A DNA stretch of 55,727 nt, taken from contig JAIRNH010000021.1 of the NCBI GenBank assembly GCA_031258155.1, positions 1 through 55,727 on the forward strand, read 5' to 3'. Positions 21,757 to 49,849 of the stretch are shown here, in pieces; position 1 is the first letter of the stretch, and every line of letters starts with the position of its first letter. The translations under genes and the position numbers were made by a program. Origin of the DNA: Helicobacteraceae bacterium. GTDB taxonomy: Bacteria > Campylobacterota > Campylobacteria > Campylobacterales > SZUA-545. Under the pieces are notes generated by a model. The model saw only the letters and a program-made list of their open reading frames with translations. It was not told where the DNA came from and did no database searches.

Positions 21757-22788
21757 CTAGAGTTTATTCGCGGTTTTTTGCAAAATCATCAGACGCTCGG
21801 CGATCGCGATTGCGCCGCCGTAGCGAACCTCTTTCGCAAGCTGTTTAGAAATATCCGTCAAATCGACGGGCAATATATTAAACAGCACTTCCGGACTCAA
21901 ACGCGACTCCTCTACGCACCAGCCAAGCTCCTTTTGGCTTATATATTTCGCGTTTGCCATCTGGTGGTTACCCGCGGCGAAAGGATACGGAACGAAAAGC
22001 GCGGGCAGTCCGTTGGCGGTCAGCTCAAAGAGCGTTCCGGCGCCCGCCCTTGCCACCGCGAGATCCGCTTGCGTAAAAAGATCGACGAGATTGGAATTGA
22101 AAGCGAAAACGTCGGCGTCGACGGCGTTTTCCTCGTAGAACTTCCGCGCCTCTTCAAATCCGGAGCGACCGCACTGGTGAATAATTTTTACGCCGCGAGC
22201 GGTTAAAGCGGGCGCGACGCTCATAGCAAACTGATTGATCGCCTCCGAGCCTTGCGATCCGCCGAGAAAAATAACAGCGTTGATTTTCGAGCGAACCCGC
22301 GCTTTATCGAAAAAAACGCGCTTTACGGGATAGTCGGCGCACGGGCTTAGCGGATCGAACGACGAGTAAAACGCCTTGCAGAAGGGCTTTAGCCTGCGAT
22401 TTAACGCGCCGCTCACCGCGTTTTGCTCGTGGATTACAAGCGGGATTTTCAGGCTTGCCGCCGCGATCGCCGCCGGCGCCGCCGCATAGCCGCCCGCGCT
22501 AAAAACCGCCTTTACGCCCAACGCGGAGAGGCTTTTTCTGGTTCTTAGAACCAACCGCCCGTTGTTTAGCAACGAAAAGAGTTTGCCTAATCCCTTTCTA
22601 TTCATTACGCCTTTGCTTGGCAAAAACATCTTGTCGATAAAACCGGAATCCTTGCCAAACCACGCGCGATCCTGCCCGTGATCGGAGCCTATAAAAAACG
22701 GTTTAACCCCTTTGGCGTTAAGCGCCTCTTTAACAGCCGAAACGACGGCTAGATGTCCGCCCGTTCCGCCGCCCGTTAAAACTATCAT
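21757..22788 (-). CDS. murG: UDP-N-acetylglucosamine transferase MurG
   Basis: Adds GlcNAc to undecaprenyl-PP-MurNAc-pentapeptide to form lipid II at the inner membrane face. The 343-residue GT28 enzyme shows the glycine loops GGTGGHLAVVSAVKEAL (residues 6-22) and FSAGGYAAAPAAIAA near 95-109, HEQNAVSGALNRRL near 122-135, FLGGSQGSEAINQF near 176-189 and the UDP-binding ARAGAGTLFELTANGLPALFVP near 245-266. It overlaps the ftsW stop by 4 bases, so flippase/polymerase and lipid II synthesis genes are coupled. Confidence 0.95.
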   Translation of the reverse strand: MIVLTGGGTGGHLAVVSAVKEALNAKGVKPFFIGSDHGQDRAWFGKDSGFIDKMFLPSKGVMNRKGLGKLFSLLNNGRLVLRTRKSLSALGVKAVFSAGGYAAAPAAIAAASLKIPLVIHEQNAVSGALNRRLKPFCKAFYSSFDPLSPCADYPVKRVFFDKARVRSKINAVIFLGGSQGSEAINQFAMSVAPALTARGVKIIHQCGRSGFEEARKFYEENAVDADVFAFNSNLVDLFTQADLAVARAGAGTLFELTANGLPALFVPYPFAAGNHQMANAKYISQKELGWCVEESRLSPEVLFNILPVDLTDISKQLAKEVRYGGAIAIAERLMILQKTANKL

Positions 22789-23963
22789 AGTTTCGCTTTC
22801 TTGCTAATCATAAGCGCCATTCCGATCGCTACGGAAAAGGCGGTAAGCGACGCGCCGCCGTAGCTTAGAAACGGCGCGGATATGCCTTTTATCGGTATTA
22901 ACCCCGTCGCGCCAAGCGCGTTCATTAAAAATTGCGATGCAATCATCACTCCGATTCCTATGCTAAAAAGATAGAAAACTGGATTATCGCTTCTATTGGC
23001 GATTTTGAATATTCTATAAATCACAAGCAAGATCAATAAACTTACAAGCGTTATTCCAAATAATCCCGTTTCTTCGGCAATCCCCGCGAGCGCGAAATCG
23101 TTATGCGCATCGCTAAGGAAACCTAATTTTACCACGCCAGCCCCAAGCCCCGATCCCATTAGTCCGCCGTGATGGATCGCGTGCGCCGACTGGATAACCT
23201 GAGAAGCGGGGCTAACGGCGGAAGCGTCAACGCGCAAAGCGTTCGCTATAAAATCGGGAAACAGCGAGAGAATATAGTCCTGCGCGCTGCTCCACCACTG
23301 CAACACGCGATCGATTCTATGCCGCGCTTGCAATATCAGCGCAAAACCGACAAACAACGATGACCCTATTAAAACGGTAAAAACCTTAACGCTAGAACCC
23401 GCAAAAAAGATCATCAGGCTCATCGTGCAACCAATCACTATCACCTGTCCTAGATCGTTTTGCGTTACGGCGATCAGAACGATCGCCACGACAAAGATAG
23501 CCGCGTAAGGCGCTATCGCGCCCAGCTCTCTAGCAAAGGTAAACTGCTCTTTGCCCGTTTTGGGGCGATAGAGTTTTCTAGTCAAGCTCCACGCCAGAAA
23601 ATAGACGAAGCCTACTTTGAAAAACTCGACGGGCGTAACGCTAAGCGATCCGAATCTAATCCACCGCCTAGCGCCGTTTATGGCGGGAACGATCGATTCG
23701 GGCATAAACGGCATAAAAAACATCAGCGCGAAAAAGAAAAAAAAGATTCCAAAGCCGATTTTTGACGCCCATCTGTCCGGATCAAGCCTCGCGAGCCCCC
23801 ATATCAAAAACAACGAAACGCAAGCGTATAGACCTTGCCTAAGAAAGAAATAGTAGTGCGGCGCGCCGATTCGCTGCGTCAGGTAAAGCGGCAGCGAAAG
23901 GGCGAACAGCACGCCCGCGAAGATCAACGCGGCTGTATAGATAAATAGATAACGATCGCTCAA
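22785..23963 (-). CDS. ftsW: Septal peptidoglycan glycosyltransferase FtsW (SEDS family)
   Basis: A 392-residue polytopic protein of about ten membrane helices. SEDS signatures are visible: NGARRWIRFGSLSVTPVEF (residues 97-115), NDLGQVIVIG near 169, VQSAHAIHHGGLMGSGLGAG-like loop near 240-260 and the end LIPIKGISAPFLSYGGASL near 357-375. The catalytic Asp region, SDAHNDFALAGIAEETG, is near 270-286. It may be FtsW (division) or RodA (elongation); adjacency to murG favours FtsW. The upstream ankyrin-AMIN lipoprotein gene ends 6 bases before its start. Confidence 0.93.
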   Translation of the reverse strand: MSDRYLFIYTAALIFAGVLFALSLPLYLTQRIGAPHYYFFLRQGLYACVSLFLIWGLARLDPDRWASKIGFGIFFFFFALMFFMPFMPESIVPAINGARRWIRFGSLSVTPVEFFKVGFVYFLAWSLTRKLYRPKTGKEQFTFARELGAIAPYAAIFVVAIVLIAVTQNDLGQVIVIGCTMSLMIFFAGSSVKVFTVLIGSSLFVGFALILQARHRIDRVLQWWSSAQDYILSLFPDFIANALRVDASAVSPASQVIQSAHAIHHGGLMGSGLGAGVVKLGFLSDAHNDFALAGIAEETGLFGITLVSLLILLVIYRIFKIANRSDNPVFYLFSIGIGVMIASQFLMNALGATGLIPIKGISAPFLSYGGASLTAFSVAIGMALMISKKAKL

Positions 23964-23969
23964 GTTATT

Positions 23970-25259
23970 TTATTGTCGCAACGTAACGACGGGACCTTCC
24001 GCGGTCCTCTCCAAATCGTAACGATACGACTTGTCCAGAAAAATCACGACGCGATAGCTTCCCGTATGCCGCCCGATCGACGCTCTTTGAAAAGTTCCGT
24101 TCGGATTTAACGGCAAAGAGAGGCTTTGCACGGCGGCGGCGCGAGAGAAATCCAAAACCAGTCTCGCGGGATTTTCCAGCGCGAAATCGCGTATTAACGG
24201 ATCGGAGGTTTTAAACGCGATTGCTTTATCGTCGTATTCAAGCGTCAAAAAGTCCATCGCCTTAAAACGCGCTATGCTTGGCAAAGCGGCGCTAGCGCTA
24301 AGCGTTCCAGCGCCAACCGCCGCAAGCGCCCGCAACTCGGAGAGCGAGCGGTTTTTCGCCGCTTGCGCCGCCAGAGTTCCGCGCTCGTTTTCGGCTATTT
24401 TTACGCCGTCTTGACCAACTATAGCGTTAATCGCGGTTTGGTTGTCGGTAAAGATAGCCCAGCTTAGCGGGCTGTAGCCGTGCGCGTCGATCGCGTCCGC
24501 GCGCGCGCCTTTAGCCAAAAGCGCGCCGACCGTCTCCTCGCTTTTGAGCAGGATCGCCCACGTAAGCGGGGTCATTCCTTCGTCGTCGGTAAGCTCTAGG
24601 TTCGCCCCCCTTTCGATCATCTTTAGCGCCAGATCGTTTTGAGCGGTTTTGATCGCGTATAGCAAAAGCGGGTGTTCGCCCACCGCGCCCAAGTTTGGAT
24701 TGGCGCCTGCGTCTAGTAGCGAAAGCGCCATTCGGCGGTAATCAACGCCTGTTATCCCCCCTAAAACGGCGATTGTCAGCGGCGAGGGAAACTCCGCGCC
24801 GCCGATATTTGGATTTGCGCCGCACGCGAGCAGGGCTTTGGCGCTCTCTAGCGCCCCCTCTTGCAGCGACAAGACTAGTAGCGGAATCCTATGCGCCGCC
24901 GTCGCTTCGTAATTAGCGCCCGCCTTGCACAGCCGTTCGATCATAGAGCGATCATTGGCTTGCGCGGCTATCGCCAAAGGCGAAAAACCTCGCCCGTCAA
25001 CGGCGTTTGGATCGGACTTTTTGCCTTCAATATGCCGCCTTAGCTCTTGATCCAGCTCCTCGATTGTCTCTACGCTCGCGTCGGGCGACCCGGCGGCGGC
25101 GTAGTAATCAATCAACGTCGCCGTCAGCGCGTTTTGCGCGGGGAGGATTTTTTCGTTTTGAGCGGTTTCGTCCTCGCTTGGCTCGATCGTTACGCCGTGC
25201 GGACGAATGCACGCGGACAACAAAAAGCCTAACGCGATCAGCGTTCCTAAAACTCGCAT
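23970..25259 (-). CDS. Lipoprotein with ankyrin repeats and C-terminal AMIN domain
   Basis: A 429-residue envelope protein. The lipobox LLSAC (Cys17) follows a typical lipoprotein signal. From about residue 90 to 290 there are about six ankyrin repeats, with the hallmark pattern GFSPLAIAAQANDRSMIERL, LLACGANPNIGG, LLDAGANPNLGA and DEGMTPLTWAILLKSEETVG. The last 95 residues are an AMIN domain: NPARLVLDFSRAAAVQSL and ASIGRHTGSYRVVIFLD. AMIN domains target proteins to peptidoglycan or its machinery. Ankyrin repeats bind proteins, so it may be an outer-membrane or periplasmic scaffold for ftsW/murG-linked wall synthesis. That role is inference. Starts one base inside the stop of the small upstream gene. 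Confidence 0.82.
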   Translation of the reverse strand: MRVLGTLIALGFLLSACIRPHGVTIEPSEDETAQNEKILPAQNALTATLIDYYAAAGSPDASVETIEELDQELRRHIEGKKSDPNAVDGRGFSPLAIAAQANDRSMIERLCKAGANYEATAAHRIPLLVLSLQEGALESAKALLACGANPNIGGAEFPSPLTIAVLGGITGVDYRRMALSLLDAGANPNLGAVGEHPLLLYAIKTAQNDLALKMIERGANLELTDDEGMTPLTWAILLKSEETVGALLAKGARADAIDAHGYSPLSWAIFTDNQTAINAIVGQDGVKIAENERGTLAAQAAKNRSLSELRALAAVGAGTLSASAALPSIARFKAMDFLTLEYDDKAIAFKTSDPLIRDFALENPARLVLDFSRAAAVQSLSLPLNPNGTFQRASIGRHTGSYRVVIFLDKSYRYDLERTAEGPVVTLRQ

Positions 25260-25624
25260 TACTCTTCTCGTTCTTTGCGGGATCTATAATAGCTCAACAC
25301 GGCGAAAACCGCCAGAGCGACTATAAGCCCAAACACGCCGCCAACCAGCGCGGCGGCGGCGATTGCCAACACGGTCGCCGCGTTGTCCCACGCCCAATTC
25401 GACGCGAAACTCGCCGCTTTGCTAACGTATGGCGCAGCGCGTTTAGCGCCGTTTTTCGCCCAATTCCACGCATTTGCGAACGCTTCCTCGCAACGTTTTT
25501 TGCCCCCTTGAGTTTCGCCTCCCTTTTCCGAAGCCGCGCCGTCAAGCTCCGCCGCTTGCGGCTTTACTTCTTCGCCCTCGCTCGCCGTATTTTGCTCAGC
25601 TTGTTCCGATCTTTTCTTTGGCAT
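25259..25624 (-). CDS. Small membrane protein of unknown function
   Basis: A 121-residue protein that I do not recognise. The first 50 residues are charged and disordered-looking (Glu, Lys, Gly, Ala). Residues 50-80 are amphipathic (NAWNWAKNGAKRAAPYVSKA). Residues 84-110 form one long hydrophobic segment or a tight hairpin (TVLAIAAAALVGGVFGLIVA), followed by a basic tail RSRKEREE. Its stop overlaps the start of the ankyrin-AMIN gene by one base (TAATG), so it is in the same operon ending with ftsW and murG. A role as membrane partner of that lipoprotein is only a suggestion. Confidence 0.7.
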   Translation of the reverse strand: MPKKRSEQAEQNTASEGEEVKPQAAELDGAASEKGGETQGGKKRCEEAFANAWNWAKNGAKRAAPYVSKAASFASNWAWDNAATVLAIAAAALVGGVFGLIVALAVFAVLSYYRSRKEREE

Positions 25625-25723
25625 TTCCTATCCTTGTAATGTAATTTCGTAAATTGTAGCGATCATACAGATTTTTGACTAAAGCGCCGAGCGCTTAAAC
25701 CGCGAATAGGAGCGATCGCCAAA

Positions 25724-35543: not shown

Positions 35544-36281
35544 ATGAGATCGATCGTATTTACTACGGCGCTCGTCGCGGCGGCGTTCGGCGCCGAATTG
35601 GACGACGTGCTAAAACAGAGCGCGGCGGATATGCAAAACGCCGCGGCTTTACAGGCTAGAATCGACGCGCTGGACGACGAGACAAAAGCGCTGTTAGACG
35701 AATACCGCCGCGTAACGCGCGAGATAGAGATTCAAGAGCGCTACAACGCGGAGCTAGAAAAGCTAGTCGCCGCGCAAGACGAGGAGACGAGGAGCATACA
35801 AAAACAGATCTACGCCGTAGAGGAAACGACCAGAAGCGTGTTGCCGCTGATAAGCGAGATGATCGAAGGTTTTGAAAGCCTCGTATCTTACGATCTGCCG
35901 TTCCTGCCCGCCGAGCGAGAGGATCGCGCGGCAAAGCTAAAAACGCTGACAAACCGCGCCGACGTATCCATAGCGGAAAAATACCGCGTCGTGCTGGAGG
36001 CTTACGCTATCGAAAGCGAGTATTCGCGCACGATCGAAGCCTACGCGGGAGAGTTGGAGGACGGCAGAGCCGTCGATTTTTTGCGGTTGGGACGAATCGG
36101 GCTTTACTATTTGACGCGCGATCACAACGAGGCGGCGAGATACGATATGGAGTTAAAAGCGTTTACGCCGCTTAACTCTGGCGACAAAGAGTCCTTAATA
36201 AACGCGGTCAAGATCGCCAAGAAAGAGAAGGTGGCGGATCTGATCGCCCTGCCGCTTAGCGCGCCAAAGGATAAACAATGA
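35544..36281 (+). CDS. DUF3450 periplasmic protein of a TonB2-type system
   Basis: A 245-residue exported protein: signal peptide MRSIVFTTALVAAAFGA, then a long coiled-coil (residues 22-110) and a helical C-terminal part with VSYDLPFLPAEREDRAAKL near 113-131 and GRIGLYYLTRDHNEAARYD, both conserved in DUF3450. In Vibrio-type TonB2 clusters a DUF3450 gene stands first, before ttpC, exbB2, exbD2, tonB2 and a TPR gene; the order is the same here. Its exact job is not known; it probably works with the TtpC-like subunit. The stop overlaps the next start by 4 bases. Expression is expected to be iron-repressed through the Fur box. Confidence 0.85.
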   Translation: MRSIVFTTALVAAAFGAELDDVLKQSAADMQNAAALQARIDALDDETKALLDEYRRVTREIEIQERYNAELEKLVAAQDEETRSIQKQIYAVEETTRSVLPLISEMIEGFESLVSYDLPFLPAEREDRAAKLKTLTNRADVSIAEKYRVVLEAYAIESEYSRTIEAYAGELEDGRAVDFLRLGRIGLYYLTRDHNEAARYDMELKAFTPLNSGDKESLINAVKIAKKEKVADLIALPLSAPKDKQ

Positions 36282-37525
36282 AACGAACGCTGATTGTTTT
36301 TACGCTCGTCGTTTGCGCGGCGTTTGGCGATAATTTGGATCGATTGCTAGAAAAGGTGCGCTCAAACGGAGAGCGGGAGCGTCAAGCCGAACTGGCGCGC
36401 GTCGATCGCTTTTTAAAAGAGCGAAACAACGCGGCTACGCTTTTGAAAAACGCCAAAGCCGAATACGATAAAGCTCAGGCTAGAGGGCGCGCGTTAGCCA
36501 ACCAAGCGGACGCGAACGAAAAGAAAAACGCCGATCTGAACGACGAGTTAAGACGAAAAAGCGGCGGTTTGAACGAGCTTTTTGGCGCGTTCAATCAGCG
36601 CGTAGGCGAATTTAAAGCCGAAACGGACGATTCGATCGTATCGGCGCAAGTTCCCGAAAGATTCGAGCGGATTCTAACGCTCGTAAACTCGCGCGAACTG
36701 CCAAGCTCCGAAGATTTGAGGGGCTTTTGGGCAATGCAGCTCGAAGAGATAATCCTAAGCGGCAAAATCGAGCGGTTCAACGCGATCGTAATCGATAGGC
36801 GCGGAGAAAAACAAGAGCGAACCGTCGTTAGGCTCGGCGCGTTTGGGGCGACGTCGGAAGGCGAGTATTTTGTTTGGAAAAACGGCGCGATCACCGCCAG
36901 CGCGGGACAGCCAAGCGGCGGCGTTCAACGGCAAGCGCGAGCTTTCGAGAGCGCCTTAGAGCCTAAAGCGATCGCCGTCGATCCTACGCGCGGCTCTCTT
37001 TTGGAGCTATTCGCTCTGCGTCCTAGTTTTGCGGAGCGAATGACGCAAGGCGGCGCGATCGGCTATCTGATCTTAACGCTGGGCGTTTTTGGCGTCGGCT
37101 TGGGATTATGGCGCATCGTCAAACTGCGCTCGATTGATAAATCCGTCAAGCGCCAACTGGCAAATATCGGCTCGCCGCGCGGCGATAATCCGCTAGGTCG
37201 CGTGCTACTCGAAACCAAGAGCAAAGAGAGCGCGCTCGATTTGGAGATAGGCGCGTTGGAAAAGGGGCAAGGCGCGATAAAACTTTTAGCCGCCGCCGCG
37301 CCGCTTTTGGGGTTGCTAGGCACGGTGGTGGGTATGATCGGCGCGTTTCAGGCGATCACGCTCTTTGGCGCGGGCGATCCTAAGATGATGGCGGGCAGCA
37401 TATCGCTGGCGCTGGTTACCACCATGCAAGGGCTTATCGTAGCGGTGCCTCTGCTGTTTATACACGGCTTTTTGCGTTTTAGAAGCCAGACGATAGGCGA
37501 TCGGCTAGAAAGCGTCTGCCTATGA
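36278..37525 (+). CDS. TtpC-like ExbB/TolQ-family protein with periplasmic extension
   Basis: A 415-residue inner-membrane protein. The first 18 residues are a signal peptide, residues 25-110 a coiled coil, and residues 110-245 a globular periplasmic part. The C-terminal 160 residues are the MotA/TolQ/ExbB domain with three membrane helices: IGYLILTLGVFGVGLGLW (near 263-280), AAAPLLGLLGTVVGMIGAF (near 337-355) and SLALVTTMQGLIVAVPLLF (near 372-390). This is the architecture of TtpC, the additional subunit of TonB2 systems. It overlaps its neighbours by 4 bases on both sides. The energy comes from proton flow through ExbB/ExbD. Confidence 0.87.
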   Translation: MKRTLIVFTLVVCAAFGDNLDRLLEKVRSNGERERQAELARVDRFLKERNNAATLLKNAKAEYDKAQARGRALANQADANEKKNADLNDELRRKSGGLNELFGAFNQRVGEFKAETDDSIVSAQVPERFERILTLVNSRELPSSEDLRGFWAMQLEEIILSGKIERFNAIVIDRRGEKQERTVVRLGAFGATSEGEYFVWKNGAITASAGQPSGGVQRQARAFESALEPKAIAVDPTRGSLLELFALRPSFAERMTQGGAIGYLILTLGVFGVGLGLWRIVKLRSIDKSVKRQLANIGSPRGDNPLGRVLLETKSKESALDLEIGALEKGQGAIKLLAAAAPLLGLLGTVVGMIGAFQAITLFGAGDPKMMAGSISLALVTTMQGLIVAVPLLFIHGFLRFRSQTIGDRLESVCL

Positions 37526-37890
37526 ACGCTATCGCGCGTTTTTTGGATAACGGCGGGCTTGCGATGTGGCTGCTTGCCGCGCTTAGTTTCACATTATGGA
37601 CGCTGGTTTTTTGGCGCTGGTTTTTTGGCGCGAAAGTTATGACGCTTCTTAAAACCATCGTCGCCATCGCGCCGCTTCTTGGGCTTTTTGGCACGGTGAT
37701 GGGCATGATCGAGGTGTTTGAGGCGATCGCGCACTACGGCTCTAGCGAGCCTAGAGTTTTCGCGTCCGGAATAGCCCGCGCCACTTTTCCCACGATGGCG
37801 GGTCTGACGATTGGGCTGCTTGGATTGTTTGCCTCGACGAAATTTGTCTATTCGTTTGGGCAAAACGCGGCTAAAGGAGGCGGATCGTGA
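37522..37890 (+). CDS. exbB: Minimal ExbB-type proton-channel subunit
   Basis: A 122-residue inner-membrane protein with three helices: GLAMWLLAALSFTLWTLVFW (residues 13-32), VAIAPLLGLFGTVMGMIEVF (near 46-65) and FPTMAGLTIGLLGLFASTKF (near 88-107). The conserved GLFGTVMGMI and pore-lining Thr/Met pattern are present. ExbB2-type proteins usually have about 170-180 residues with a cytoplasmic loop of about 50 residues between helix 1 and 2; here only about 12 residues (RWFFGAKVMTLLKT) separate them. Coding continuity with the neighbours (4-base overlaps) argues against a sequencing artefact. Confidence 0.85.
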   Translation: MNAIARFLDNGGLAMWLLAALSFTLWTLVFWRWFFGAKVMTLLKTIVAIAPLLGLFGTVMGMIEVFEAIAHYGSSEPRVFASGIARATFPTMAGLTIGLLGLFASTKFVYSFGQNAAKGGGS

Positions 37891-38282
37891 GAAGGCAAAG
37901 ACGCGACGAAGAAACGGGCGTGGATATGACGCCGATGCTCGACATCGTATTTATTATGCTGATCTTTTTTATCGTTACCGCTTCGTTTGTCAAGGAGTCT
38001 GGTATTAGCGTTAATAGCCCTCGCGCCTCGACCGCGCAGACGCAGGATCAGGCGAGCGTGATGATCGCTATTAACGAGGCGGGCGAGATATGGATAGACG
38101 GGCGCATAGTGGATATTCGCGCTATAAGAGCCAACGTCGCGCGCTTAAAGGCGCTTAATCCTGAAGGCGCGGTCGTTATCCAAGCCGACGCGAACGCGAA
38201 AACCTATCTGCTCGTCGAGGCTATGGATCAAGCGCGGCAGGCGGGAGTTGAAAATGTATCGATCGCGGCGCGCCCCAAATAG
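37887..38282 (+). CDS. exbD: ExbD/TolR-type biopolymer transport protein
   Basis: A 131-residue protein with a short cytoplasmic tail, a single membrane helix (DMTPMLDIVFIMLIFFIVTA, residues 13-32) holding the proton-carrying Asp, and a periplasmic domain of the ExbD fold (GVNVNSPRAS-like start, MIAINEAGEIWIDGRIV, AVVIQADANAKTYLLVEAMD). It partners ExbB to drive TonB. It overlaps exbB by 4 bases and tonB by about 29 bases. The assignment is firm from the motif and context. Confidence 0.92.
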   Translation: MRRQRRDEETGVDMTPMLDIVFIMLIFFIVTASFVKESGISVNSPRASTAQTQDQASVMIAINEAGEIWIDGRIVDIRAIRANVARLKALNPEGAVVIQADANAKTYLLVEAMDQARQAGVENVSIAARPK

Positions 38283-38886
38283 GGCGCTTGTCAAAGGTTT
38301 CGGCGCGATCTTTTTTGGCGCTTGCGCGTCCGTAACCACGCTGTGGCTAATGGCGCTCGCGACCAATTTCGCGCCGAGCGAAACGCGAAACGGCGATTTT
38401 GACAAAATAGTCGAATTTATCAGACTGCGCGAGGAGAGCGCGCTAACGCCGCAGACCAGAACGATCACGCCGCCAAAACCGCCGCCTCCGCCGGAGCTTC
38501 GCACGGAAGTGGACATAGGCTCTATTGAAGAGACAAACGCCTACGCCTTCGCGATCGATCCTTCCATGCTCTCTATGAAAGGAATAGCGGTTGGTCGCGG
38601 CGTCGCGGAGCGAGGGCTAATCCCCGTTTCTGGAATCCCGCCGAACTATCCTCGCGCCGCAAAAATGCGGGGGATCGAGGGAAACGTGGAGCTTGAGTTT
38701 ATCATTACCGAAAGCGGCGAGGTAACCGACATAATCGTCATAGGCGGGGTCAACGGCGATTGGTTTACGGAAACGGCTATACGGGCGCTATCGCGCTGGC
38801 GTTTCTCGCCCAAAATAGTAAACGGCAAGCCGGCGCGCCAGCTTGCTAGGCAGGTATTTACCTTCAAATTGGAGAACGAACGATGA
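38254..38886 (+). CDS. tonB: TonB protein (TonB2-like, short linker)
   Basis: A 210-residue energy transducer. One N-terminal membrane helix (GFGAIFFGACASVTTLWLMA, residues 16-35) is followed by a short proline stretch PPKPPPPPE (near 73-81) and the TonB C-terminal domain: YPRAAKMRGIEGNVELEFII and RALSRWRFSPKIVNGKPARQ. The periplasmic linker is much shorter than in classical TonB, as in TonB2 types. I take the ATG at 38254 with GGGAG upstream; a TTG at 38248 is the alternative. It starts inside exbD. No TonB-dependent receptor gene is in the window. Confidence 0.92.
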   Translation: MYRSRRAPNRALVKGFGAIFFGACASVTTLWLMALATNFAPSETRNGDFDKIVEFIRLREESALTPQTRTITPPKPPPPPELRTEVDIGSIEETNAYAFAIDPSMLSMKGIAVGRGVAERGLIPVSGIPPNYPRAAKMRGIEGNVELEFIITESGEVTDIIVIGGVNGDWFTETAIRALSRWRFSPKIVNGKPARQLARQVFTFKLENER

Positions 38887-39716
38887 GAACGATTTGGCTT
38901 TTATCGGTTTTTTGCGTTTTGCTTAACGCCGCTCTGCCGCTTGAGGAGGCGAAAGCGCATTTAGACGCGGGACGCTATAAAGAGGCTTACGAACCGCTTA
39001 AACAGGCTATATCCATGGTTGAAAACCCGCCGATCGCTTGGCGGCGCGTGCTGGCTTCGCTATGTCTTGAAATCAACAACACCAAAGAGGCGATCGAGGC
39101 GTTTAAGGGCATAGTGATCGAGGAGGAATCGACCGAAAGCGACTTTATGGGGCTGTTTTACGCGTATTCGCTATTGGGCGACGATAAAAACGCGCTTGGA
39201 GTTTTGAGCGCCGCGCAAGCCGCTGGCAAATTGGACAAAGAATCCAGCCTCGCGATCTATTCGAGCATGTTAGCGCAAGGCGGCGGCGCGATACGAGCGG
39301 CTAAACTCTTACGCCGCGCGATCGACGAGAACAAAATAGCCAAAACCCCGCAAAACTACGAAAGGCTTTTTTACGCATATCGTCAGGCGCGAGAGCATAA
39401 GGAGGGGCTGCGCGCCATTCGTTTGGCGAACTCTCTGAGTCCTAGCGAGCGGTTTTATTCGCAAGCGGCGTATGTCGCGTTTGAATCCGGAGAGTTTAGC
39501 GCGGCGATCGAAGCCGCTCAAAAAGCGATTGAACTTGACGCTAAAAACGCGCATTCGCTTAGGCTGTTAATCGGCGCGTGCGCTATTGAAACGAAAGACT
39601 ATATGCTTGCGCGATCGGCGTTCGCCGAAGTCTTAAAATCGCCCAAACACGCTAAACAGGCTAAAAGCTGGCTAAACTATTTAGACGAGCTTACTATTAA
39701 GCAGAGCTTAAATTAA
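38883..39716 (+). CDS. TPR protein ending the TonB2-type operon
   Basis: A 277-residue exported protein: signal peptide MRTIWLLSVFCVLLNAALP, then about six helical pairs of TPR type (LEEAKAHLDAGRYKEAYEPL, GEFSAAIEAAQKAIELDAKN, SLRLLIGACAIETKDYMLAR). It overlaps tonB by 4 bases. Vibrio TonB2 clusters end with a TPR gene of the same size. The role is probably to support assembly or stability of the complex; this is inference. There is no clear terminator after it. Confidence 0.85.
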   Translation: MRTIWLLSVFCVLLNAALPLEEAKAHLDAGRYKEAYEPLKQAISMVENPPIAWRRVLASLCLEINNTKEAIEAFKGIVIEEESTESDFMGLFYAYSLLGDDKNALGVLSAAQAAGKLDKESSLAIYSSMLAQGGGAIRAAKLLRRAIDENKIAKTPQNYERLFYAYRQAREHKEGLRAIRLANSLSPSERFYSQAAYVAFESGEFSAAIEAAQKAIELDAKNAHSLRLLIGACAIETKDYMLARSAFAEVLKSPKHAKQAKSWLNYLDELTIKQSLN

Positions 39717-47308: not shown

Positions 47309-49849
47309 TTAGCGTTTAAGGTTGATAGCGTTTTGTATTAGCTGATCGTTTGTGGTAATCGCCTTTGCCGCGCCCTCGTAAGATCGTTGATAAACGATCA
47401 GATCGCTTAGCGCGACCGCCGCTTGAACGTTACTGCTTTCAAGCGCGCCTCCCGTTACCGACGGCAGTTGCGCTCCGTTCGCGTCAAGATAAAAAAACGG
47501 CTCGCCGGAGTTCGCGCTCTGCATAAACTGATTGTTTCCAACGCGCATAAGCCCTTGATCGTTCGCAAAATGATAGACGGCGATCTGTCCAACCTCGCTC
47601 TGTCGCCCGTTGTCAAAAACGGCGACGATATAACCGCGCTCGTCGATCGCGTATTGTTCCAAATTCCCCTCGATAACGCCGTCGGCGCTAACGCTCGCGC
47701 TTTGCGCGAAGCCGTCGTCCGCTTTTAGGTTGAAATTAAAATTGATCGGCGTTCCTCCGTTATCAAGAACGACGCTCGTATCGCCGATCGCCGCGCCGTT
47801 TAGATCCAGCGCCACGATCTTTGTCTGTTTAGAAAGCGTCGAGTAAGCCTCGATCGAAGCGGAGCTTATCGAGGCGTTAGCCGCCGGCGCGGCGTTTAAC
47901 GAGCAAAAAAGCCGTAGCAACGCTTCGGGCGTATTATCGCCGCCGTAAACGCCGCTTGAGATCGTCTGATTCGATCCGTTTGTCGTCGTTATTTTGCCGT
48001 TTGCGACGCTAACGGACGCGCCGACGAGATTGGCTATTTGATCGATCGCGCTCGCGTAATCGCCGATTGTCTCTCCTTGCGCGTAGGCGACGTTTCCAAG
48101 ACTCATCGGCGCGAAAATCGCGTTTGGCAGATTGCTTTCGCCGTTTGCGAAATAGAGGCGATCGCCTTTTGGATAAACGATCAAATTCGTTCCGTCGCGG
48201 CTCGTTTCGTAACCCGCCGCGCCAAGTATCGCGGCTACGCCCGCCGCCGTAATTAGCGCGTCGTCGCCGTCCGCGCCGAGATATTCGTAACTTGCGTCGT
48301 CAAGCGTAAAGCGGACAAAAGGCGCTTCGCCGTCGGCTATATCGCTCGCAAGCGGTAGCGAATAGCCTAGTCCGATATTAGTGGAGGCGGGCAGTTTGCC
48401 AAAGCCAAACCATAGATTTTCGCCGCCTTTTAATTCAAGCTCTTTGCCGTCTTGGACAATCGAGCTTAGATCGGAAGCGGCGCTCATCGCTCCAAGCCGT
48501 TTTAAGCTCGCCGTCGCCTCGTATGTCGCGCCGCCGTTCGCATCTGCCGGCGCGATCAGCCGCGCCGAACTTGCAAGAACAAGACGATCTCCGTTTGGAG
48601 CTATCGCCGTTTGTTCCGCGCTTATCGCCGATTGTCTGAAAACGGAGCTTTGAAACGCGGTTTTTTCTAAACCGTCGAAGGTAGAAAACGCCGTCAAAAG
48701 GCTTTCGGGCGAGTTTCCGCCGTTCGCGACGAGCAACGAAAAATTGTTGGCGCCGTTAGCCGTAATCTTGCCGTTGTAATCGGTAAAAAAGTCGGTTTGC
48801 GGATAGATCGCTCGCGCCGTTTGCGCGATCGTCTCTTGCAGATCGCTTAACGTCGAGCTTGCGTTAGCCGTCCATATCGAGGCGTTTAGCGGCGCTAAAA
48901 ACGGGTCGCTCGAATTGGCTATCGAAAGGGCGTTCGGCGACGAAATCGCGATATTCGCGCCGCTTCTTGAGGCGTTCGCCGCGCCGCTCGCGTTTATCGC
49001 GTTTGCTATCGCCTCGCCGATCTCGTCCTCGCTCGCGCCGAGCGCCCACGAAACGTTTATCGCAACGCCGTTTAGCTCGAAACCGAGCGGAGAGACGATA
49101 TGCTCGTTGATCGTTATCGTTTTTTTGATCTCCCCAAGCGCGGCGAATACGCCGGCGTTATCGCCCGCCGCGATCAGCAGATTATCGCCCGCGTTCAGTC
49201 CCATATAAGCGCCGTTTTGATCGTATAGCGAAGCGATCGGCGCGTTTTTGTCCGCCGTTTTTGTTTGCGTAACCGAATACGGAAAATTGGCGTTCAGCGC
49301 GCCGTTTTTGGTGGCGATCGGCGGAAAAACGATATTATCGGGCGCGAATAAGGGCTGTTGCGCGGTTACGCCGTCGATCGCGCCCGCGTTTACGCCATGA
49401 ACGATTTTCCATACGCCGCCGTCGTTGATCATAGCGCCCCAACTCGTGCCTAAGAGATAGTTTCCGTTTTGCGTTACGATATTGCCGTTCGCGTCGCGGC
49501 TGAACGCGCCGTCGCGCGTGTAAACGATTGTTTTTGCGTCGTAGATATTCGATCCAACCACGCCAAACCAGCCCTGTTCGTTGATCGCTACGTCGAATGC
49601 GTTTCCCGTTTGCGTCGCCGCGCCGCTTCGCAGATCGATTCTCGTCGCGCTTGTTCTTACGCCTACGCCGTCGTCGCTTGAAAGCGTTTGCGAATTGAGC
49701 GCGAGGCAACGATCGTATAGCGAAGCAAACTCTATCGCGCTCGCGCGGTAGCCCGTAGTATTGATATTGGCGATATTATTCGCCGTTGTGTCGATTGCGT
49801 TTTGATGAGTTTTCGCGCCCGTTAACGCGCTCCAAAAACCGCTATTCAC
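47309..49849 (-). CDS. flgE: Flagellar hook protein FlgE (long, Campylobacter type)
   Basis: Structural subunit of the flagellar hook. The 846-residue protein has the N-terminal axial domain MNSGFWSALTGAKTHQNAID and NNIANINTTGYRASAIEFAS (residues 1-45), then the FlgE-specific FDVAINEQGWFGVVGSN near 84-100, a long variable surface region (100-740), and the C-terminal axial domain ESSNVQAAVALSDLIVYQRS followed by YEGAAKAITTNDQLIQNAINLKR. The length is near that of Campylobacter FlgE and about twice that of E. coli. It follows flgD by 21 bases. RpoN control is expected from the promoter before flgD. Confidence 0.94.
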   Translation of the reverse strand: MNSGFWSALTGAKTHQNAIDTTANNIANINTTGYRASAIEFASLYDRCLALNSQTLSSDDGVGVRTSATRIDLRSGAATQTGNAFDVAINEQGWFGVVGSNIYDAKTIVYTRDGAFSRDANGNIVTQNGNYLLGTSWGAMINDGGVWKIVHGVNAGAIDGVTAQQPLFAPDNIVFPPIATKNGALNANFPYSVTQTKTADKNAPIASLYDQNGAYMGLNAGDNLLIAAGDNAGVFAALGEIKKTITINEHIVSPLGFELNGVAINVSWALGASEDEIGEAIANAINASGAANASRSGANIAISSPNALSIANSSDPFLAPLNASIWTANASSTLSDLQETIAQTARAIYPQTDFFTDYNGKITANGANNFSLLVANGGNSPESLLTAFSTFDGLEKTAFQSSVFRQSAISAEQTAIAPNGDRLVLASSARLIAPADANGGATYEATASLKRLGAMSAASDLSSIVQDGKELELKGGENLWFGFGKLPASTNIGLGYSLPLASDIADGEAPFVRFTLDDASYEYLGADGDDALITAAGVAAILGAAGYETSRDGTNLIVYPKGDRLYFANGESNLPNAIFAPMSLGNVAYAQGETIGDYASAIDQIANLVGASVSVANGKITTTNGSNQTISSGVYGGDNTPEALLRLFCSLNAAPAANASISSASIEAYSTLSKQTKIVALDLNGAAIGDTSVVLDNGGTPINFNFNLKADDGFAQSASVSADGVIEGNLEQYAIDERGYIVAVFDNGRQSEVGQIAVYHFANDQGLMRVGNNQFMQSANSGEPFFYLDANGAQLPSVTGGALESSNVQAAVALSDLIVYQRSYEGAAKAITTNDQLIQNAINLKR

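Follow-up and report, generated by a model that had tools for sequence, protein, structure and literature searches.

AMIN domains are described in the amidase AmiC and in the secretin PilQ; those of Pseudomonas aeruginosa PilQ bind purified cell wall and are required for recruitment to midcell, in the excerpted account available (PMC5285504). By similar excerpts, the FliO of almost all Campylobacterota carries an AMIN domain in the periplasm, needed in C. jejuni for the stability of FlhB (PMC12403147), and the flagellar scaffold contains PflA, in which an AMIN domain is joined to TPR repeats (PMC11870540). The phylum also has a stand-alone AMIN protein, CgpA (NF049961). The initial annotation names amidases and secretins as the normal partners of AMIN, which is incomplete in view of these proteins, and in PflA, built of AMIN and TPR, the combination of AMIN with a repeat scaffold has a precedent in the Campylobacterota, although a flagellar one. 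Ankyrin repeats outside the cytoplasm are found in AnkB and Cj1386, both catalase-linked in the part of the source consulted (PMC7567364).

We analyzed a 55,727-nucleotide contig of a Helicobacteraceae bacterium, the whole of which is called the window, and in it a gene whose 429-aa product combines in one chain a lipobox, six ankyrin repeats and an AMIN domain at the C-terminus (Table 1). This architecture, proposed beforehand from the sequence, was confirmed by pattern matching, by Pfam and by an AlphaFold2 model. A literature search of titles and abstract openings found no publication describing it among the papers listed. The gene belongs to a minus-strand block in the order 121-aa membrane protein, ankyrin-AMIN protein, ftsW and murG. 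The ORF list bears out the coordinates of the first two ORFs and the coupling of one to the other by a single shared base, and the Pfam matches to FtsW and MurG bear out the place of the pair ahead of these genes. A gap of 6 bases separates the ankyrin-AMIN gene from ftsW, which overlaps murG by 4 bases; the end of recG lies 99 bases upstream of the block. Promoter-like sites were not commoner in the region than in shuffled sequences, terminator patterns did not exceed the shuffle level there, and RNA families gave 0 matches at gathering score within the window.

Table 1. Position of the genes, protein domains and promoter-like site of the block in the window
Feature	Positions	Strand	Basis
Promoter-like site, 28 bases ahead of the first gene of the block	25653..25681	-	weak, 9/12
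Membrane protein, 121 aa	25259..25624	-	ORF list; nothing above Pfam/NCBIfam cut-off
Ankyrin-AMIN lipoprotein, 429 aa	23970..25259	-	ORF list, Pfam, orthologues, model
Signal peptide with lipobox LSAC, residues 1-17 (Cys17 at 25209-25211)	25209..25259	-	pattern
N-terminal helix pair, residues 44-78, conserved motif L45xxxLIxYY53	25026..25130	-	alignment and model
Six ankyrin repeats (helix pairs), residues 94-281	24417..24980	-	Pfam and model
AMIN domain, residues 328-429	23973..24278	-	Pfam, isolated-domain model, fold matches
ftsW	22785..23963	-	TTG start; FtsW family, Pfam E 1.5e-78
murG	21757..22788	-	MurG domains, Pfam E 1.4e-36 and 8.8e-24

The AlphaFold2 model of the whole protein (alignment of 11 sequences) has a mean pLDDT of 80 and a pTM of 0.59, with low confidence at the N-terminus (residues 1-41) and in the linker 315-324. 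A helix pair at 290-315 closes the ankyrin stack in this model, and strands follow at 328-427. Ank_2 was matched at E 2.1e-18 (67.1 bits, cut-off 27.3), and the model aligned with the structure 6moj (Z 19.7, rmsd 5.7, 222 residues), which places this part among the ankyrin-repeat proteins. The match to the lipobox pattern classes the protein as a predicted lipoprotein. The strict lipobox is present in 10 of the 12 orthologous sequences, the window included; one has LLAC and one contig begins inside the gene. By the Lol rule of E. coli, a lipoprotein in which the residue after the cysteine is not Asp is predicted to reside in the outer membrane. Because Ile follows Cys17 in the window, the outer membrane is predicted here, and the protein is probably located there as judged from its sequence; Asp was absent from this position in every orthologue showing it.

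The AMIN domain was recognized by Pfam (PF11741, residues 350-426) at E 1.4e-8 and 35.1 bits against a cut-off of 20.5, and a second search gave 38.6 bits. Since ankyrins took up the whole-model Foldseek and VIA-align lists, the AMIN part was folded and searched alone. The isolated model reached a pLDDT of 90, and its top fold matches were AmiC (4bin; Z 9.2, rmsd 3.3, 96 residues), PilQ of M. xanthus (3jc8; Z 9.1, rmsd 2.6, 88 residues), PilQ of Neisseria (4aqz; Z 8.4, rmsd 2.9, 92 residues) and PflA (9leq; Z 8.0, rmsd 3.2, 88 residues), with the first unrelated chain at Z 6.5. These matches assign the region to the AMIN beta-sandwich fold. Foldseek with the same model was weak: no match was obtained at E 0.001, PilQ came first at E 7.6e-3, and the C. 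jejuni motor scaffold 9hmf_K ranked third (probability 0.90, E 0.23). A profile of the AMIN region searched against solved structures gave PilQ 3jc8 at E 5.5e-5 and AmiC weakly at E 0.17. The window protein has no amidase domain and carries its AMIN domain at the C-terminus, in contrast to AmiC, and Pfam found no secretin domain in it, whereas PilQ is a secretin. PflA likewise combines AMIN with a helical-repeat solenoid in the periplasm, by the excerpted account (PMC11870540). However, its solenoid is TPR and not ankyrin, its function is flagellar, the identity is 4%, and the order of domains is reversed, with AMIN first and TPR following; in the window protein ankyrin comes first and AMIN last.

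How far the architecture is conserved was taken as a test of the initial annotation, and here its expectation held. Searches with profile A1 detected ankyrin-AMIN proteins in 12 of the 14 genomes of the family of the window, in five of seven genera (one copy is cut by a contig end), and orthologues down to 27-30% identity retain both domains. No full match came from the other 384 genomes in the order sample. Although 83 of these 384 matched A1 at E 1e-20, the matches concerned one part only or ORFs too short for both, such as the 212-aa frame in G059 and the 244-aa frame in G388. Thirteen ankyrin-type loci from 12 non-family genomes, some cut at the end of the stretch, were re-read and contained no AMIN at E 0.1, while two family controls were positive. 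An occurrence of the architecture outside the family was therefore rejected for the order sample, and in the phylum sample A1 was matched in 3 of 249 genomes, all from this same family. A scan of a contig database with two peptide patterns, which distant cases may escape and which is the sole search reaching other phyla, returned 12 loci. Ten are ankyrin-AMIN genes in metagenome-assembled genomes labelled Helicobacteraceae or Epsilonproteobacteria; at the other two (Desulfatibacillaceae, Endozoicomonas) the ankyrin part alone was matched. Judging by their isolate-name series, we take the ankyrin-AMIN records to come from termite guts. Within the family, two genomes of two genera (G007 and G009, each 82% complete) gave no full-length match despite possessing ftsW-murG; G009 has an ankyrin match alone, in a 248-aa frame. 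This indicates that the ankyrin-AMIN protein is not a general need of FtsW.

Linkage to ftsW and murG was also looked for in the relatives, as the initial annotation had suggested, and was found. The ankyrin-AMIN gene lies directly before ftsW on the same strand in 10 of 12 genomes (G000-G006, G010, G011, G013) and on the same contig in an eleventh; the contig of the twelfth is cut. murG comes next after ftsW in nine of these ten, none being seen there in G005. The ten genomes represent three genera, so the gene shows a linkage to a division gene conserved across genera, one of the features looked for in divisome components. The ankyrin-AMIN/ftsW block stays in place while the genes upstream of it change. 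The window has recG there and G001 has dcd; G006 and G011 have, by Pfam, a HhH-GPD/endonuclease III-type gene, as do G004 and G013 when read by eye. The position is taken in G010 by an ORF without assignment and in G005 by a MORN-repeat gene on the opposite strand, and the contigs of G002 and G003 run out close to the upstream side of the block.

The two remaining carriers are arranged differently. The contig of G008 bears the C-terminal part of ftsW, murG, flhB, an unassigned ORF, the ankyrin-AMIN gene, here the third after murG, and the start of a response-regulator-like gene (by eye, at the contig end); the place where flhB follows murG is at L149:2411-3469, with the ankyrin-AMIN gene two genes on. 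The contig of G012 carries the ankyrin-AMIN gene, cut by the contig end, followed by a response regulator-PAS-GGDEF gene, recA and eno (by eye), and ftsW had no match in this 60% complete genome. If both contigs show one arrangement, the gene would once have stood between the ftsW cluster and the eno cluster, which bears cgpA in many Campylobacterota. At 20 ftsW loci drawn from 19 other families, with about 5 kb of flank to either side and one locus truncated by its contig, no ORF reached E 0.01 with A1. The gene preceding ftsW in G007 and G009 looks by eye like fabH. In several other families (L114-L131), ftsW-murG is divergent from flgB, flgC, fliE and a class B PBP (by eye), so that within the order division genes frequently adjoin those of the flagellar rod.

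The N-terminal half of the 121-aa protein is charged; near the C-terminus come 33 residues that are uncharged and mostly hydrophobic, with GG midway along them. Assignment to a known family was rejected, since nothing in Pfam or NCBIfam exceeded the cut-off. Relatives were found in 10 of 149 genomes, all of the family of the window (this sample list is without G007, G009 and G012). The gene is intact directly before the ankyrin-AMIN gene in eight genomes (G000-G004, G006, G011, G013). In G010 the corresponding stretch lies about 175 bases upstream and has an internal stop; G005 has a relative on another contig, and the search of G008 found none. The small protein thus goes with the ftsW-linked form. 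Seven of the eight sequences have an uncharged stretch of about 32-38 residues, which in the eighth is broken by an Asp and measures 18; such a stretch may form one long or two short membrane passes. Its dN/dS ranged from 0.14 to 0.68 in four pairs.

The AMIN domain itself points to CgpA. Residues 333-427, a C-terminal stretch of 95, match the C-terminal part of the CgpA model NF049961 at E 6.3e-16 (NCBIfam); with 58.6 bits against a cut-off of 300, the window protein does not itself reach membership of the CgpA family. When an AMIN profile of the ankyrin-AMIN family was run against 397 genomes of the class, 334 had relatives. Among the matches listed, those outside the family are mostly ORFs of 150-290 aa, and those read contained no ankyrin. 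The source genome also has a separate CgpA-type copy, on contig C39, which overlaps a DivIC/FtsB-like gene in the eno cluster (L002:848-1734). The pair is found again across the Campylobacterota: of 29 loci from 27 genomes other than the source genome, 21 have the CgpA-type gene right after a DivIC/FtsB-like gene, a count that leaves out the family loci L140, L141 and L143. The label DivIC/FtsB-like denotes a blastp match (E 0.01) to the 91-aa protein of the source genome, whose own DivIC match of 27.3 bits is below the cut-off of 28.9. Most often the CgpA-type gene stands after eno, flanked by the ftsB-like gene and by aroK or some other gene. This recurrent position favours a division setting for the AMIN subfamily, and a division role for CgpA seems worth testing.

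A tree was built from 103 alignment columns, with one truncated duplicate row of G010 omitted. In it the 12 ankyrin-AMIN domains group as a single clade (100/99), separate from the 31 stand-alone AMIN domains, while the CgpA-type copies of four family genomes, rows that drew a long-branch warning, group with other CgpA. These positions led us to reject a recent copy of the CgpA of the source genome as the origin of the domain. Horizontal arrival of the block is not favoured either, as a tree of ftsW-murG (G012 not included, G008 with a partial FtsW) holds the carriers together; this branch is weak (57/20), and loss in G007 and G009 is for that reason indistinguishable from late gain. For the same five pairs, dN/dS was 0.12-0.25 for the ankyrin-AMIN gene and 0.04-0.09 for ftsW. 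The ankyrin-AMIN gene is thus under purifying selection and evolves faster than ftsW. These values, together with the retention of both domains at 27-30% identity, show that the architecture is not due to chance.

The best explanation, which we put forward tentatively and at somewhat less than even confidence, is that the protein works alongside FtsW at the division site as a docking scaffold, periplasmic and anchored to the wall. The 429-aa protein would be exported, anchored by lipid at Cys17 in the predicted outer membrane, and face the periplasm. Its AMIN domain would, by the example of PilQ and AmiC, bind peptidoglycan, most likely septal or polar wall, and the ankyrin stack would hold a partner protein. 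Presumably sharing a transcript with FtsW, MurG and the small membrane protein, such a lineage-specific scaffold could keep both the outer membrane and the wall-synthesis machinery driven by FtsW aligned with the wall where the cell divides. The domains, their predicted fold, the conservation, the selection and the gene linkage are results of the analysis, from which the wall binding, membrane, partner, co-transcription and site of action are inferred together with the precedents. Conservation of the architecture and the persistent linkage to ftsW make a role with FtsW/MurG likely, and the gene linkage and domain precedent make the protein a good candidate for a division function. The wall-synthesis or division scaffold of the initial annotation is thus supported in part: the architecture is kept in 12 of 14 family genomes and linked to ftsW in 10 of 12, but G007 and G009 have no full-length match. 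Against a scaffold also stand the contexts in G008 and G012, which are not division-specific, the placing in G005 of the small protein's relative on another contig and of no visible murG after ftsW, the faster evolution relative to ftsW, and four SPOR-domain matches in the source genome, SPOR being another septal-wall binder; co-expression with ftsW may reflect growth control only. A more elaborate version, which we regard as doubtful, has a duplicated CgpA-type AMIN fused to an ankyrin stack and moved to the ftsW operon as a division component that arose once, in this one family. The outer-membrane lipoprotein would then read the septal wall and dock the FtsW complex directly, and the small membrane protein would be its partner in the inner membrane. 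If the protein is a division scaffold, lineage-specific parts made of protein-docking repeats and a wall-reading domain can be added to the FtsW machine on its periplasmic side. AMIN proteins beside division genes, as with CgpA by the DivIC/FtsB-like gene, may be a theme of the Campylobacterota, testable through CgpA in culturable relatives.

Several features would also suit a general tether between the outer membrane and the wall, or an envelope-quality lipoprotein, riding in a growth-linked operon with an ankyrin partner unrelated to division. Lipobox and AMIN fit this reading, linkage can arise from co-regulation, and the place relative to ftsW differs in G008. We nevertheless consider it unlikely: the block outlasts the exchange of its upstream neighbours in three genera, and the ankyrin part (51-78% identity to the window within g1, g5 and g6) is about as conserved as the AMIN part (39-84%), which makes a specific ankyrin partner likely. 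Somewhat less probable still is a polar or flagellar scaffold that, like PflA, would use AMIN and a repeat solenoid to place flagellar or other polar parts. It draws on the presence of AMIN in PflA and FliO of Campylobacterota, in the excerpts cited (PMC12403147, PMC11870540), on the rank of the PflA domain (9leq) and 9hmf_K among the fold matches, on flhB after murG in G008 and on FliP, found in 12 of the 14 family genomes. The direct linkage in 10 of 12 genomes is, however, to ftsW-murG and not to flagellar genes. G007 and G009 have FliP without an ankyrin-AMIN match, and G008 and G013 have the ankyrin-AMIN gene without a FliP match, though the latter two genomes are only 79% and 71% complete. 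Moreover, the profile search of solved structures gave PilQ and AmiC and not PflA.

That the protein assists a redox or haem enzyme as a periplasmic ankyrin accessory is very improbable. The model for this is Pseudomonas AnkB or Campylobacter Cj1386, ankyrin proteins of a kind that serves catalases according to the excerpted source (PMC7567364). No catalase was seen among the ORFs beside the gene at the 12 orthologous loci (mostly by eye). In addition, we know of no AMIN domain in AnkB or Cj1386. The wall-anchored scaffold working with FtsW remains our preferred reading.

Other genes in the relatives and in the window deserve mention. G008 encodes a different ankyrin protein (394 aa) paired with a FecR-domain protein (L162:4147-6108 for the pair), and in G009, at L163:3197-4756, an ankyrin ORF follows an ORF of similar look (by eye). 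In the window, positions 35544-39716 contain in a row DUF3450, two MotA/TolQ/ExbB-type genes (415 and 122 aa), ExbD, TonB and a TPR protein, an arrangement resembling a TonB system that has one additional ExbB. Positions 47309-49849 encode a flagellar hook-type protein of 846 aa, in which FlgE/F/G-type domains lie close to either end.
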